Shown here piece by piece: positions 3,043 to 8,468 of a stretch of 9,350 bases of DNA. The stretch's first letter is position 1. Each line of letters opens with the position of its first letter. Source of the DNA: Burkholderiales bacterium (lineage in GTDB: Bacteria > Pseudomonadota > Gammaproteobacteria > Burkholderiales > Burkholderiaceae_C); contig SYDB01000091.1 in assembly GCA_005786815.1 (NCBI GenBank), positions 1-9,350 on the forward strand, read 5' to 3'. The position numbers and the translations under genes are program-made. The notes under the pieces are model-generated. The model did not search any database, was not told where the DNA came from, and worked only from the letters and a program-made list of their open reading frames with translations.

Positions 3043-3361
<319 letters not shown>

Positions 3362-4623: not shown

Positions 4624-4636
4624 TTTCCCCGCCTTG

Positions 4637-4683
4637 CAAAGCGCCCCCTTGGCCTCATCTGTCGGTGGGGCTTTGTAGTTTTT
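4637..4683 (+). terminator. Probable intrinsic terminator after fabF
   Basis: CAAAGC (4637-4642) pairs with GCTTTG (4670-4675). After a bulged G at 4643, CCC (4644-4646) pairs with GGG (4667-4669). A run of five T follows at 4679-4683, three bases beyond the stem. The loop is large (about 20 bases), so efficiency may be moderate. It lies between fabF and the protease gene and would close the fab transcript. Confidence 0.55.
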
Positions 4684-4698
4684 GATGACAAATTTTGG

Positions 4699-6183
4699 AT
4701 GCTGAAGATGACTATGAATAATTCTTTTTTTCGTGTAGTGCTTGTGAGTTGTTTAACTTTGGCCATGGGCGCGGCTGGTTTTCCAACATTTGTGCAAGCG
4801 CAAACTACAGCGCAGTCGGTTCGCGAATTGCCTGACTTCACCGATTTGGTTGAACAGGTCGGCCCTTCTGTTGTCAACATTCGCACCTTAGAAAAAGTTG
4901 CGGTGCGTGACGCACAAGCGGGCTCACCCGACGAAGAAATGCAAGAGTTGTTCCGCCGTTTTTTTGGTGTGCCTATGCCTGCACCCAATGGACCGCGTCA
5001 GCAACGACCCAACCGTCAGCAACCTGAACAAGAGCAACCCAGAGGCGTTGGTTCTGGTTTTATCTTGTCAGCCGACGGTTTTGTCATGACCAATGCCCAT
5101 GTGGTGGAGGGCGCGGATCAAGTTTTGGTGACACTGCCAGATAAGCGCGAATTCAAGGCCCGCATTGTTGGCACCGACAAACGCAGCGATGTGGCTGTGT
5201 TAAAGGTTGAAACCACTGGATTACCTGCGGTGCGCATTGGCGATGTTTCGCGCCTCAAGGTCGGCGAATGGGTCATGGCAATTGGCTCACCTTTTGGGCT
5301 TGATAACTCAGTGACCGCTGGCATCGTGAGTGCAAAGCAACGCGACACGGGTGACTATTTGCCATTCATCCAAACTGACGTAGCGATCAATCCGGGCAAC
5401 TCAGGCGGGCCGCTGATCAATATGCGTGGTGAGGTAGTTGGCATCAACAGCCAAATTTATTCGCGCTCTGGTGGATTCATGGGTATCTCGTTTGCCATTC
5501 CGATTGACGAAGCCATTCGTGTGAGCGAGCAACTTCGCACTACCGGGCGTGTTCAACGCGGCCGTCTTGGCGTACAAATTGACCAAGTGAGCAAAGAAGT
5601 TGCCGAATCCTTAGGACTTGTAAAAACGCAAGGCGCTTTGGTGCGCGGCGTCGAGCAAGGCTCACCTGCTGAAAAAGCTGGATTGGAGCCAGGCGACATC
5701 ATCTTGAAATTTGATGGCAAGCCCATCGATAAATCATCTGACTTGCCGCGCATGGTGGGCAGCACCAAACCCGGAACAAAGAGCACTATCCAAGTCTGGC
5801 GCCGCGGTAGTTTGGTCGATAAGCAAATCACAGTAGGTGAGTTCGAGCCAGAGGCCCCAGCCAAAAAAGCTGCAGCGCCTGCTGAAAAGCCAGCAACATC
5901 CAGCGCTGCAAAATTCTTGGGCTTGACGATTAGTGACCTCACTGACGCCCAGAAGAAAGAACTAAAAGTCAAAGGTGGTGTTCGAGTAGACGCTTCTACG
6001 GAGGCCGCCGCTCGCGCTGGCATTCAAGAAGGTGACGTGATCTTGGCTTTGGCCAATACCGAAACGCCATCGGTTCAGGTGCTTGAAGCGCTGGTGGCTA
6101 AGGTTGATCGGGCCAAGCCCGTGAGTTTGCTGATCCGACGCGGGGAGTGGGCGCAATATGTCGTCATCCGACCACCCCGCTAA
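4699..6183 (+). CDS. mucD: DegP/DegQ-type periplasmic serine protease (MucD/HtrA)
   Basis: This HtrA-family protease degrades misfolded envelope proteins in the periplasm. The 494-residue protein starts with a signal peptide: hydrophobic stretch about 10-30, likely cleavage after VQA at 34. The trypsin-like domain carries His134 (TNAHVV), Asp164 (SDVAVLKV) and Ser235 (NPGNSGGPL), a complete triad. PDZ1 spans about 285-380, an Ala/Pro/Lys-rich linker 383-402 and PDZ2 about 403-492, the DegP/DegQ layout. Three in-frame ATGs are possible (4699, 4708, 4714); a GAAG at 4704-4707 suits ATG 4714, which still leaves a good signal peptide, so the true start may be 15 bases later. In related bacteria mucD follows rpoE and the anti-sigma genes; here it directly follows fabF. 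Confidence 0.93.
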   Translation: MLKMTMNNSFFRVVLVSCLTLAMGAAGFPTFVQAQTTAQSVRELPDFTDLVEQVGPSVVNIRTLEKVAVRDAQAGSPDEEMQELFRRFFGVPMPAPNGPRQQRPNRQQPEQEQPRGVGSGFILSADGFVMTNAHVVEGADQVLVTLPDKREFKARIVGTDKRSDVAVLKVETTGLPAVRIGDVSRLKVGEWVMAIGSPFGLDNSVTAGIVSAKQRDTGDYLPFIQTDVAINPGNSGGPLINMRGEVVGINSQIYSRSGGFMGISFAIPIDEAIRVSEQLRTTGRVQRGRLGVQIDQVSKEVAESLGLVKTQGALVRGVEQGSPAEKAGLEPGDIILKFDGKPIDKSSDLPRMVGSTKPGTKSTIQVWRRGSLVDKQITVGEFEPEAPAKKAAAPAEKPATSSAAKFLGLTISDLTDAQKKELKVKGGVRVDASTEAAARAGIQEGDVILALANTETPSVQVLEALVAKVDRAKPVSLLIRRGEWAQYVVIRPPR

Positions 6184-6231
6184 AGCCTTAAACCGCACTG
6201 GGGTGTGAGGTTGTTGCTTAAAAATCAGGGT

Positions 6232-6262
6232 GGGCAGATAAATTTTTTCTGCTTTTCTGTCC
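6232..6262 (+). terminator. Weak terminator-like hairpin after mucD
   Basis: GCAGA (6234-6238) can pair with TCTGC (6248-6252), followed by TTTT at 6253-6256. An alternative fold pairs GGGCAGA (6232-6238) with TCTGTCC (6256-6262), including one G-U pair. Both stems are short, so this is a tentative 3' end for mucD, 50-80 bases after its stop. Confidence 0.3.
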
Positions 6263-6328
6263 GCAGTTTGAATAGTTGGTAAGCGCTCACAAAATATTTC
6301 ATCACTATTTATTAATATATAAAAATCT

Positions 6329-6346
6329 TATTTTTGACTATTTTTG
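6329..6346 (+). repeat. Tandem TATTTTTG repeats in the AT-rich block
   Basis: The 8-mer TATTTTTG occurs at 6329-6336 and again at 6339-6346, a 10-bp period close to one helical turn. A related ACTATTT occurs at 6304-6310. Such T-rich phased repeats resemble the AT-rich 13-mers of an E. coli-type DNA unwinding element, or could simply be bent, low-melting DNA. Confidence 0.5.
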
Positions 6347-6349
6347 TTA

Positions 6350-6362
6350 TATCAAACCATTT
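6350..6362 (+). promoter_or_regulatory. IHF-like site
   Basis: TATCAAACCATTT fits the IHF consensus WATCAANNNNTTR at all fixed positions except the last base. It lies between the AT-rich block and the first DnaA-like box, where E. coli oriC and DARS-type loci also carry an IHF site. A single degenerate match in AT-rich DNA is weak evidence by itself. Confidence 0.3.
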
Positions 6363-6373
6363 AAAATCCATGA

Positions 6374-6399
6374 TGTGGAATAACTCGGGTTCTTCCACA
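6374..6399. repeat. Inverted repeat TGTGGAA / TTCCACA
   Basis: TGTGGAA at 6374-6380 and TTCCACA at 6393-6399 form a perfect 7-bp inverted repeat separated by 12 bases. Each arm carries the TGTGG/CCACA core of a DnaA box; the left one continues AATAA, a consensus box with one extra base. The right arm is the first box of the phased forward group. Confidence 0.55.
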
Positions 6400-6421
6400 G
6401 GTGCTCCACAGTTCACCCACA
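6391..6421 (+). repeat. Three degenerate DnaA-like boxes at 11-bp period
   Basis: TCTTCCACA (6391-6399), TGCTCCACA (6402-6410) and TCACCCACA (6413-6421) each differ from the consensus TTATCCACA at two positions and repeat every 11 bases. Low-affinity boxes phased at about one helical turn are how DnaA-ATP filaments load at origins. The repeat itself is directly visible; DnaA binding is inference. Confidence 0.55.
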
Positions 6422-6448
6422 GCTTAGTCCAAAAACCTATAAAGAAAT

Positions 6449-6468
6449 TGTTGATAAACTGTGGATAA
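6449..6468 (-). repeat. Two tandem DnaA boxes, one perfect consensus
   Basis: On the minus strand TTATCCACA (plus-strand TGTGGATAA, 6460-6468) matches the DnaA consensus perfectly. The neighbouring TTATCAACA (plus-strand TGTTGATAA, 6449-6457) has one mismatch. They are 11 bases apart start to start, with a 2-base spacer, and face the forward group at 6391-6421. A further partial core TGTGG lies at 6474-6478. Confidence 0.65.
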
Positions 6469-6483
6469 ATTCCTGTGGCGCAT

Positions 6484-6633
6484 ATGCAACGTGTCCTTTT
6501 TTGGCCATTGCTGGGTTGGTGTTTTGGCTTTTTTGCCTACAATGAATCTCCAACTATCGCAGTTGCCATTGCTTGTTGGTTCTGGGCGCGTCAGCATCTG
6601 ACGCGCCCTTTTTTCATGTCTTCATCCCTTTGA
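6484..6633 (+). CDS. Possible 49-residue hydrophobic small protein or leader ORF
   Basis: An open frame from ATG 6484 to TGA 6631-6633 encodes 49 residues with two hydrophobic stretches, about 4-19 (LFWPLLGWCFGFFAY region) and 24-34 (TIAVAIACWFW), then a basic segment ARQHLTR. This could be a two-helix small membrane protein with the positive part in the cytoplasm. I recognise no family. Against it: no Shine-Dalgarno is visible, the T-rich DNA naturally reads as Phe and Leu, and its 3' third is the arm of a perfect terminator. Its stop is 26 bases before the lepA ATG, so if translated it could act as a leader peptide whose ribosome disrupts that terminator. Confidence 0.25.
   Translation: MQRVLFWPLLGWCFGFFAYNESPTIAVAIACWFWARQHLTRPFFMSSSL
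6516..6543 (+). promoter_or_regulatory. Possible sigma-70 promoter before lepA
   Basis: TACAAT (6538-6543) is a five-of-six match to the minus-10 consensus, with TTGGTG (6516-6521) 16 bases upstream as a poor minus-35 (three of six). Transcription would start near 6550, some 34 bases before the terminator stem. It is the best promoter-like pair I see between mucD and lepA, but the minus-35 is weak. Confidence 0.4.
6550..6614 (+). ncRNA. Candidate short RNA or lepA leader RNA
   Basis: A transcript from the promoter-like pair at 6516-6543 ending at the terminator would be about 65 bases. It can fold as CAACT (6551-6555) with AGTTG (6561-6565) around a 5-base loop, or alternatively CCAAC (6550-6554) with GTTGG (6575-6579), followed by the terminator stem. 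Two mutually exclusive upstream stems are what a switchable leader would have. I recognise no known RNA family, and the start site is inferred. It overlaps the 49-codon frame, and both interpretations cannot use the same start of transcription. Confidence 0.35.
6584..6614 (+). terminator. Strong intrinsic terminator 45 bases before lepA
   Basis: GGGCGCGTCAG (6584-6594) pairs perfectly with CTGACGCGCCC (6598-6608), an 11-bp GC-rich stem with a 3-base loop, followed at once by six T (6609-6614). This is the best terminator in the window. It leaves only 45 bases before ATG 6660, with no promoter-like pair in them, so lepA transcription probably passes through it. Confidence 0.88.
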
Positions 6634-6640
6634 ATTCAAT

Positions 6641-6650
6641 CACTTAAGTG
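6641..6650. repeat. 10-bp palindrome just upstream of lepA
   Basis: CACTTAAGTG is a perfect 10-bp palindrome whose last base is nine bases before the lepA ATG, where a ribosome-binding site would be expected. It has no hairpin loop, so any role would be as DNA. It may be chance. Confidence 0.3.
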
Positions 6651-6659
6651 CTCCCGTTG

Positions 6660-8468
6660 ATGAATCACATCAGAAACTTCTCCATCATTGCGCACATCGA
6701 CCATGGCAAATCGACGCTCGCCGACCGCATTATTCAGCGTTGCGGCGGACTCGAAGACCGAGAAATGGAGGCGCAGGTTCTCGACTCGATGGACATCGAA
6801 AAAGAGCGTGGGATAACCATCAAAGCGCAGACAGCTGCGCTGCAATACAAAGCGAAAGACGGACAGATTTACAACCTCAATTTGATCGACACACCAGGTC
6901 ACGTCGACTTTTCTTATGAAGTCTCGCGTTCTTTGTCTGCATGCGAAGGCGCATTGTTAGTGGTGGACGCCAGCCAAGGTGTCGAAGCACAAACCGTTGC
7001 CAATTGCTACACCGCCCTAGACTTGGGCGTTGAGGTTCTGCCAGTGCTCAACAAAATGGATTTGCCACAAGCCGATCCAGACAACGCCAAAGCAGAAATT
7101 GAAGATGTCATCGGCATAGACGCCACCGACGCGATTCCTTGTTCTGCCAAAACGGGCATGGGCATTGAAGAAATTCTGGAAGCCGTAGTCGCCAAAATTC
7201 CGCCGCCACAAGGCAACCCAGACGCGCCCTTGCGCGCCATGATCATTGACAGTTGGTTCGATACCTATGTGGGTGTAGTCATGTTGGTGCGCGTTGTCGA
7301 CGGGCGTTTGGGCAAAGGCGAGCGCTTCAAGATGATGGCTTCGCACGCGGTCTACAACGCAGACAACCTCGGCGTTTTTACCCCTGCCAACCAACCGCGC
7401 GAATCGCTGGAAGCAGGGCAAGTCGGCTACATCATTGCCGGTATCAAAGAACTGCAAGCCGCCAAGGTGGGTGACACCATCACCATAGAGAAAAAGCTAC
7501 CCAATAACCTCGGCCCTGCCGAAAAAGCCTTGCCCGGTTTCAAAGAAATCCAGCCGCAAGTTTTTGCTGGTCTCTATCCAACGGAAGCCAATCAATACGA
7601 CGCTTTGCGCGATGCATTGGAAAAACTCAAACTCAACGATGCGTCCTTACATTACGAGCCTGAAGTCTCGCAAGCCTTGGGGTTTGGATTCCGCTGCGGT
7701 TTCCTCGGCCTTTTGCACATGGAAATCGTGCAAGAACGGTTGGAGCGTGAGTTTGACCAAGACTTGATCACCACGGCACCGAGCGTGGTGTATCAAGTTG
7801 TCAAGCCCGATGGCGAGGTGGTATTGGTGGAAAACCCCGCCAAGATGCCTGACCAAGGCAAGATGCAAGAGATCCGTGAGCCTATTGTCACCGTGCATTT
7901 GTATATGCCGCAAGAGTATGTGGGTGCGGTAATGACGCTTGCCAACCAAAAGCGCGGCGTGCAACTCAATATGGCGTATCACGGCCGACAAGTGATGTTG
8001 ACCTACGACATGCCTTTGGGCGAGATCGTGCTTGATTTCTTTGACAAACTCAAATCAGTGAGCCGTGGTTATGCGTCGATGGACTACGAGTTCAAAGAAT
8101 TTCGTGCGTCCGACGTGGTCAAGGTCGACATTTTGTTGAATGGCGAGAAAGTCGACGCTTTATCGATCATCGTGCACCGCACCCAATCGCAATACCGTGG
8201 TCGTGCTGTCGTGGCCAAAATGCGCGAGATCATCAGCCGTCAGATGTTCGATGTGGCAATTCAAGCGGCGATCGGTGCCAACATCATCGCCCGCGAAACG
8301 ATCAAGGCTTTGCGCAAGAACGTACTGGCAAAATGCTACGGTGGTGATATCTCGCGTAAGCGCAAGCTCTTAGAGAAACAAAAAGCAGGTAAAAAACGTA
8401 TGAAACAAATCGGCTCTGTCGAGGTGCCCCAAGAGGCTTTCTTAGCAATTCTGCAGGTAGACGACTAA
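6660..8468 (+). CDS. lepA: Elongation factor 4 (LepA), ribosome-associated GTPase
   Basis: LepA is a translational GTPase related to EF-G that acts on the ribosome; proposed roles are back-translocation, rescue of stalled ribosomes and 30S assembly. From ATG 6660 the protein is 602 residues (E. coli 599). G motifs are intact: AHIDHGKST (11-19), Thr53 in [15 protein letters not shown] (77-81), NKMD (131-134) and SAK (162-164). Domain II, the EF-G III/V-like domains and the LepA-specific C-terminus ending [22 protein letters not shown] follow. ATG 6660 gives [18 protein letters not shown], the family's usual start; an in-frame GTG at 6648 would add four residues. No clear ribosome-binding site precedes either. 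It overlaps lepB by one base, so the two are translationally linked. Confidence 0.97.

Follow-up and report, generated by a model that had tools for sequence, protein, structure and literature searches.

In Escherichia coli, 15 of 16 DnaA ChIP regions are reported to contain a double DnaA box with a 2–3-bp gap, DnaA is described as binding such box pairs in vivo, and at the double-box promoters of nrdA, polA, purH and nrdD two tandem boxes lie 2–3 bp apart upstream of the gene (PMC11317965). The same organism carries non-coding DnaA-box clusters away from oriC, namely datA, DARS1 and DARS2 (PMC5742627, PMC4245941). Regulatory RNAs have been described in this context too. Thus, arrA of Bacillus subtilis, a cis-antisense RNA of dnaA that exceeds 1000 nt in vitro, has its promoter by DnaA sites, responds to DnaA and is repressed by it in vitro (PMC12112137), and CcnA of Caulobacter is a cell-cycle non-coding RNA with weak DnaA boxes, located at the origin and thought to be controlled by CtrA (PMC8959179). 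The locus analysed here is a cluster of DnaA-type boxes between mucD and lepA. On balance, though with some reserve, we regard it as a regulatory region upstream of a predicted small-RNA gene whose output DnaA is predicted to set.

The window, that is, the whole 9,350-nucleotide stretch analysed, is one entire contig of a draft genome of 1.29 Mb (249 contigs, 59% complete). In it, a 476-bp intergenic region separates a gene for a DegP-like protease (4699–6183, plus strand), which we take to be mucD, as did the preliminary description, from lepA (6660–8468, plus strand). This synteny is conserved; lepA lies downstream in all 57 loci checked, the window's own among them. On its other side mucD adjoins fabF without an intervening gene (4624–4698); in many relatives, rpoE and rse/muc genes presumably stand between the two.

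Every box claimed in the preliminary description was recovered by motif scan at its coordinates. Three weak boxes in tandem, with two mismatches each and an 11-bp period, occupy the plus strand (6391–6399, 6402–6410 and 6413–6421). They face, on the minus strand, a perfect box TTATCCACA (6460–6468) and, 11 bp from it, a box with one mismatch, TTATCAACA (6449–6457). The latter two make up a tandem double box with a 2-bp gap, TTATCCACA-GT-TTATCAACA (6449–6468, minus strand), which is the most conserved DnaA-type feature of the element by motif scan and conservation, and whose gap is that of double-box DnaA-regulated promoters, with tandem boxes 2–3 bp apart. For a further weak DnaA-like box, TATTCCACA (6374–6382, minus strand, two mismatches), no family-wide peak was seen at the corresponding position of 108 loci. 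The claimed AT-rich block adjoining the boxes is likewise present (6291–6365, no strand, 87% A+T by composition). At its position in the 108 loci the A+T content has a median of 0.60 and a range of 0.35–0.87; the block is not conserved in relatives and is probably not a functional unwinding element.

The box cluster is real and beyond chance. Six boxes with at most two mismatches fall within 95 bp; when the intergenic region was shuffled 2000 times with dinucleotides preserved, no shuffle matched this, and a tandem pair with at most one mismatch in each box was likewise reached by 0 of 2000. The information resides in the clustering and conservation of the boxes and not in plain counts. TTATNCACA at up to one mismatch is found 8 times in the whole window against 5.9 expected, an ordinary number, and in the draft genome the perfect 9-mer, with 11 sites, is not overrepresented relative to its reversed control, which has 14. 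Elsewhere in the window, a single TTATTCACA box, an exact match to TTATNCACA, sits directly upstream of acpP (3096–3104).

An alignment of 42 sequences, comprising the window and 41 relatives that we picked, shows the boxes to be the outer part of a composite element. The opposing tandem boxes come first and a palindrome second; TTTTTGCC-TACAAT follows, then a hairpin whose loop is GCAGTTGCCA, a GC-rich terminator and its T run, and finally lepA. The conserved −10, hairpin and terminator had been passed over in the preliminary description, and the boxes stand at a nearly fixed distance from them. The predicted −10 hexamer TACAAT (6538–6543, plus strand) is recognized by alignment conservation; a consensus promoter scan of the region returned no promoter and no sigma-70-like −35.

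Distances were measured from the −10 hexamer in 108 distinct loci and in 155 anchor placements of 153 loci (L019 and L363 being anchored twice). Both are non-random samples, drawn from the best MucD relatives, a relatives search, the best matches of the RNA model described below and 20 chosen distant loci (45–67 bits), with genome copies merged if their upstream sequence was identical and loci with short upstream sequence or without the anchor pattern dropped. In the 108 loci, minus-strand boxes peak at −90 and −79. Both have at most two mismatches in 94, and the remainder of these upstream sequences, 47,354 strand positions in all, contains no such tandem pair. Among the 155 placements, 131 have the pair (at most two mismatches per box) at −92 to −87, 122 of these at −90 or −89. 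The position of the pair relative to the promoter is thus conserved and nearly fixed, and the question of whether the boxes are kept alongside mucD and lepA, raised in the preliminary description, is answered positively. The 24 placements that fail include six Variovorax loci and six box-free loci. In the former (L027, L029, L052, L068, L076 and L083) the distal box is intact and the proximal one degenerate; the latter (L040, L050, L067, L372, L379 and L380) retain the RNA. A plus-strand tandem, CCACA-N6-CCACA, lies between −150 and −100 in 86 of the 108 loci. Of the 20 distant loci examined, 19 could be anchored; the minus pair passes in 12 of them and a plus pair starting at −115 to −117 is found in 11.

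Between the boxes and the promoter lies the imperfect palindrome TGTGGC-N5-TGCAACG (6474–6491, no strand, from the alignment), the usual family form of which is TGTTGC-N5-TGCAACG; it is a putative site of a second regulator. Its GCAAC half-site is present in 134 placements and absent in 21; in 130 of the 134 the distance from its end to the −10 is 46 or 47 bp. Among the anchored distant loci, 17 of 19 have it at −46 or −47. The boxes also occur without the palindrome, in a few loci such as L221, L222 and L074. The spacer between palindrome and promoter is nearly constant in length and mostly unconserved in sequence. Likewise, the distance from the boxes to the promoter is held to a few bp across the family while the spacer sequence drifts.

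Downstream of the promoter, folding and a covariance model predict a small RNA of ~65 nt (6550–6614, plus strand). It consists of a hairpin (6550–6579) with the loop GCAGTTGCCA at 6559–6568 and an intrinsic terminator (6584–6614) with a stem at 6584–6608 and a T run at 6609–6614, both predicted folds on the plus strand; the T run ends 45 bp upstream of the lepA ATG. The combination expected of a small RNA, a conserved structured RNA with an intrinsic terminator, is therefore seen. The fold z-score lies between −5.1 and −6.0 in all four sequences folded, that of the window being −5.1. The covariance model matches 221 of 250 family genomes, in 97 of 108 genera, under strict filters, although some of the weakest of the 221 matches may be chance. 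Among 300 genomes of the order, the ten same-family genomes listed score 46–97 bits, 23 genomes of other families score 23.6–32.1 bits, which we take as terminator-like chance matches, and 247 give no match. Most of the 20 more distant loci (45–67 bits) have a different inner stem and the same loop. As judged by eye, a complementary 5-bp outer stem is present in all 26 sequences of an alignment that spans the divergent group (A2), and in L379 it is kept through a double change from C-G to U-A. Covariation is thin, with two-sided change in 2 of 16 pairs, because the RNA is nearly invariant; the stem evidence is taken from alignments, since counts from anchored loci are partly forced by the search expression.

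The small RNA has no match in Rfam near any gathering score. A match to the AsrC family at the lepA start, on the other strand, scores 23 bits where the cut-off is 111, and the remaining Rfam matches of the region are at chance level. A short leader peptide was also considered and rejected: the frame from an ATG overlapping the −10 is not conserved and contains indels, extending over 9 codons in 30 of 75 sequences, over 19 codons in 17, and in another 28 meeting no stop before the stretch ends. The predicted small RNA is not protein-coding. Between the terminator and lepA, a conserved AATTCAATCACTTAA block (6630–6650) may be a lepA promoter or translation leader.

The double box also stands out at the genome scale. 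Exact double boxes occur in 7 of 16 genomes, once each and always at the mucD–lepA locus, while the reversed-pattern control gives 0. With up to one mismatch, 21 sites were found in 16 genomes and none for the reversed control. Fifteen of these lie at the mucD–lepA locus, a single one per genome in every genome except G350, three lie at dnaA (G033, G403 and G264) and three elsewhere (G095, G416 and G319); all 11 exact sites of this second scan are at the mucD–lepA locus. Both genome sets were chosen by us, with 7 genomes in common and 9 differing, and both scans covered the 2-bp gap only.

Several other explanations of the cluster have to be weighed. The preliminary description had proposed that it may be the chromosomal oriC in an unexpected position, as suggested by an AT-rich block beside opposing tandem boxes. 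The DnaA-type cluster survives from that proposal, through its clustering and conservation, and the identity as oriC does not, given the GC skew of relatives. The matter is judged from relatives because the window's own draft genome (249 contigs, 59% complete) has no match to the DnaA C-terminal domain. Skew was computed on sampled stretches of two single-contig genomes (G403 and G137) and two drafts (G033 and G011); in all four it keeps its sign at the locus and changes at or near dnaA. In G403, from the same genus (single contig, 2.594 Mb), sign changes fall around dnaA, which is located at 1.2 kb, and near 1.35 Mb. All nine samples between 0 and 1.21 Mb have positive skew; those between 1.50 and 2.46 Mb are negative, apart from one of +0.004 at 1.98 Mb. 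The mucD–lepA locus, at 2.025 Mb, is inside one replichore. The skew is close to zero around it (the value at 1.98 Mb, and −0.004 at 2.01–2.03 Mb) and reaches −0.061 and −0.053 further out on the two sides. In G137 (4.14 Mb, one contig) the first 12 kb are negative, 0.2–2.0 Mb positive and 2.3–4.0 Mb negative, with dnaA at 1.1 kb and the locus at 1.007 Mb. For G033, the two flanks of dnaA differ, one having negative skew and the other zero to positive values, and both sides of the locus are positive. In G011 all nine samples of the locus-bearing contig are negative, and the dnaA contig changes sign at 55–74 kb, about 17–37 kb from dnaA. The near-zero values around the locus in G403, the negative first 12 kb of G137 and the offset of the G011 sign change from dnaA count against the rejection of an origin here. 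For G061 and G292 the sampled skew was too noisy to decide. Within the window itself, the local cumulative skew near 6300 is at a maximum, not a minimum. The locus typically lies mid-replichore, at a median of 0.52 of the ori–ter distance (range 0.30–1.00) in 31 of 32 single-contig genomes with dnaA located; G352 was left out, as the position of its RNA match was not listed, and genome sizes were rounded for 21 of the 31. With dnaA taken as the origin, all 31 genomes have the locus oriented co-directionally with the fork, G516, at the opposite pole, being ambiguous, so the earlier caution about head-on transcription falls away. The relatives also offer a better origin candidate, the dnaA–dnaN gap, which is likely their oriC. 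In 20 relatives (regions L144–L163) this gap has its own cluster of up to about five boxes with similar spacing; a tandem minus pair 11 bp apart, the second box with two mismatches, lies at the dnaA start in 13 of the 20, and a plus-strand box comes after the minus pair. The genome-wide scan for perfect boxes that the preliminary description had in mind did yield 11 places in the window's genome; none has a BLAST match to the relatives' dnaA regions, hence the genome's own origin is probably not among them. Two further kinds of origin were tried and dropped: 6184–6660 has no match in plasmids, and 6530–6660 has none in phages. Judged from the relatives, the locus is very probably not the origin, and with the AT-rich block unconserved in the 108 loci we find the oriC reading of the window scarcely credible. 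A box cluster beside AT-rich DNA is insufficient ground for calling an origin.

The main rival is a titration, inactivation or reactivation role, in which a datA- or DARS-like locus would sit beside the small-RNA gene by chance and would influence DnaA itself instead of transcription. Double boxes that are strong, nearly unique and opposed by weaker tandem boxes would suit such a locus, as would the mid-replichore position, although shared synteny explains that position equally well. In addition, datA, DARS1 and DARS2 are themselves double-box ChIP peaks in E. coli (PMC11317965), and the exact IHF consensus occurs in 19 of 153 loci against 1 of 153 shuffles. Of the 22 IHF matches, however, 15 overlap the box pair itself, the window has no exact consensus, and searching the 153 loci for that consensus revealed no conserved IHF site apart from the boxes. 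The DARS core comparison, made against DARS2, shows that its arrangement of one box closely facing a pair is absent, the nearest facing boxes being 27 bp apart here and 5 bp in E. coli DARS2. That core is described as limited to E. coli-related gamma-proteobacteria (PMC4245941), whereas a review from the same field places it in beta- or gamma-proteobacteria (PMC5742627). A fixed distance to the −10 hexamer would be needless for a locus of this kind, and we consider this rival unlikely. Still less probable is that promoter, hairpin and terminator form a leader or attenuator of the lepA operon, with DnaA controlling lepA. The invariable presence of lepA downstream and the closeness of the T run to its ATG speak for this arrangement. 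The predicted structures, with a strong terminator and no competing fold, speak against it, as do the invariant loop, for which no attenuator role is apparent, and the spacing of the proximal box, whose position varies from about −182 to −245 relative to lepA while hardly shifting relative to the −10. Finally, the motif might belong to another protein and merely resemble DnaA boxes, which seems most improbable. In its favour, the conserved palindrome alongside presumably binds some other factor. Yet a tandem pair of this kind occurs at dnaA in 3 of the 16 genomes, a minus pair with the 11-bp spacing marks the dnaA start in most of the 20 relatives, and in the 94 selected pairs, which were pre-selected at two mismatches or fewer per box, positions 7–9 are invariant and position 5 takes all four bases, being free as in the DnaA consensus.

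In the preferred reading, a DnaA-controlled small-RNA promoter, DnaA would bind cooperatively at the double box, some 90 bp upstream of the start, as a dimer or a larger filament, and a second protein on the palindrome would sit next to it. Together they would recruit RNA polymerase to a promoter without a good −35. How much RNA is made would then depend on the level of DnaA or on its nucleotide state, and hence on the replication cycle, and the RNA would act in trans on mRNAs through its conserved loop, GCAGUUGCCA. DnaA also acts as a repressor. Activation is the preferred sign of control here because of the weak −35 and the upstream position of the boxes. The box-free loci retain the RNA, as one would expect were the boxes to serve the RNA and not the reverse. 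As 24 of the 155 placements fail the box test, these loci included, DnaA would be dispensable for the RNA, and DnaA control, if real, can apparently be lost. The fixed distance between boxes and promoter could also serve a larger nucleoprotein complex.

The partners of the RNA were sought by predicted pairing. The dnaA 5′ region was compared with 60 random windows in each of 14 genomes. In 11 of these, between 23 and 60 windows paired equally well or better; in G017, G010 and G011 the number was 2, 4 and 9, respectively. By prediction, dnaA is thus no clear target. The loop has 18–32 complementary sites per genome in four genomes, the RNA gene included, against 4–14 for the reversed control; the sites are so numerous and unspecific that none can be singled out as a target. 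Among the matches listed, loci are given for 30 of the 92.

More tentatively, and at somewhat less than even chances, we propose a family-wide wiring in which DnaA would read the replication state at the chromosome's best tandem double box, typically mid-replichore, and the small RNA would broadcast that state to mRNAs via one nearly invariant loop. If true, replication status would be tied to post-transcriptional control through a small circuit. What calls for attention in any case is that the best 2-bp-gap double box lies beside a predicted small-RNA promoter, and not at the origin, in 15 of the 16 genomes scanned, and that the predicted small RNA is retained in most genera of a large family. 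Searches of open-licence PMC text, judged by titles and the openings of abstracts, yielded no description of this small RNA or of its control by DnaA, and, as far as these searches go, no such cell-cycle RNA circuit has been described in beta-proteobacteria. A 2012 study in Genome Research reportedly dealt with toxic DNA fragments with DnaA sites and with a beta-proteobacterial toxic RNA.

Set against the known systems, the locus most resembles the E. coli double-box promoters in its two closely spaced tandem boxes upstream of a gene, and differs in that a predicted small RNA would be controlled here, as opposed to a protein gene, and in having a second, opposing tandem array and a palindrome (PMC11317965). 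With E. coli datA, DARS1 and DARS2 it shares a non-coding box cluster away from oriC, here without the DARS2 core spacing and a separate conserved IHF site, and with the boxes tied to a promoter (PMC5742627, PMC4245941). CcnA is alike as a non-coding RNA accompanied by DnaA boxes, and unlike the predicted RNA it is encoded at the origin, with CtrA as its supposed regulator (PMC8959179). The likeness to arrA is that of a regulatory RNA with a promoter by DnaA sites; the RNA predicted here differs in being ~65 nt long, far from dnaA, from another phylum and without predicted pairing to dnaA (PMC12112137). Since arrA is known as a DnaA-responsive RNA, the kind itself is not new. What would be new, if true, is a family-wide small RNA that is encoded away from dnaA and carries a double DnaA box.
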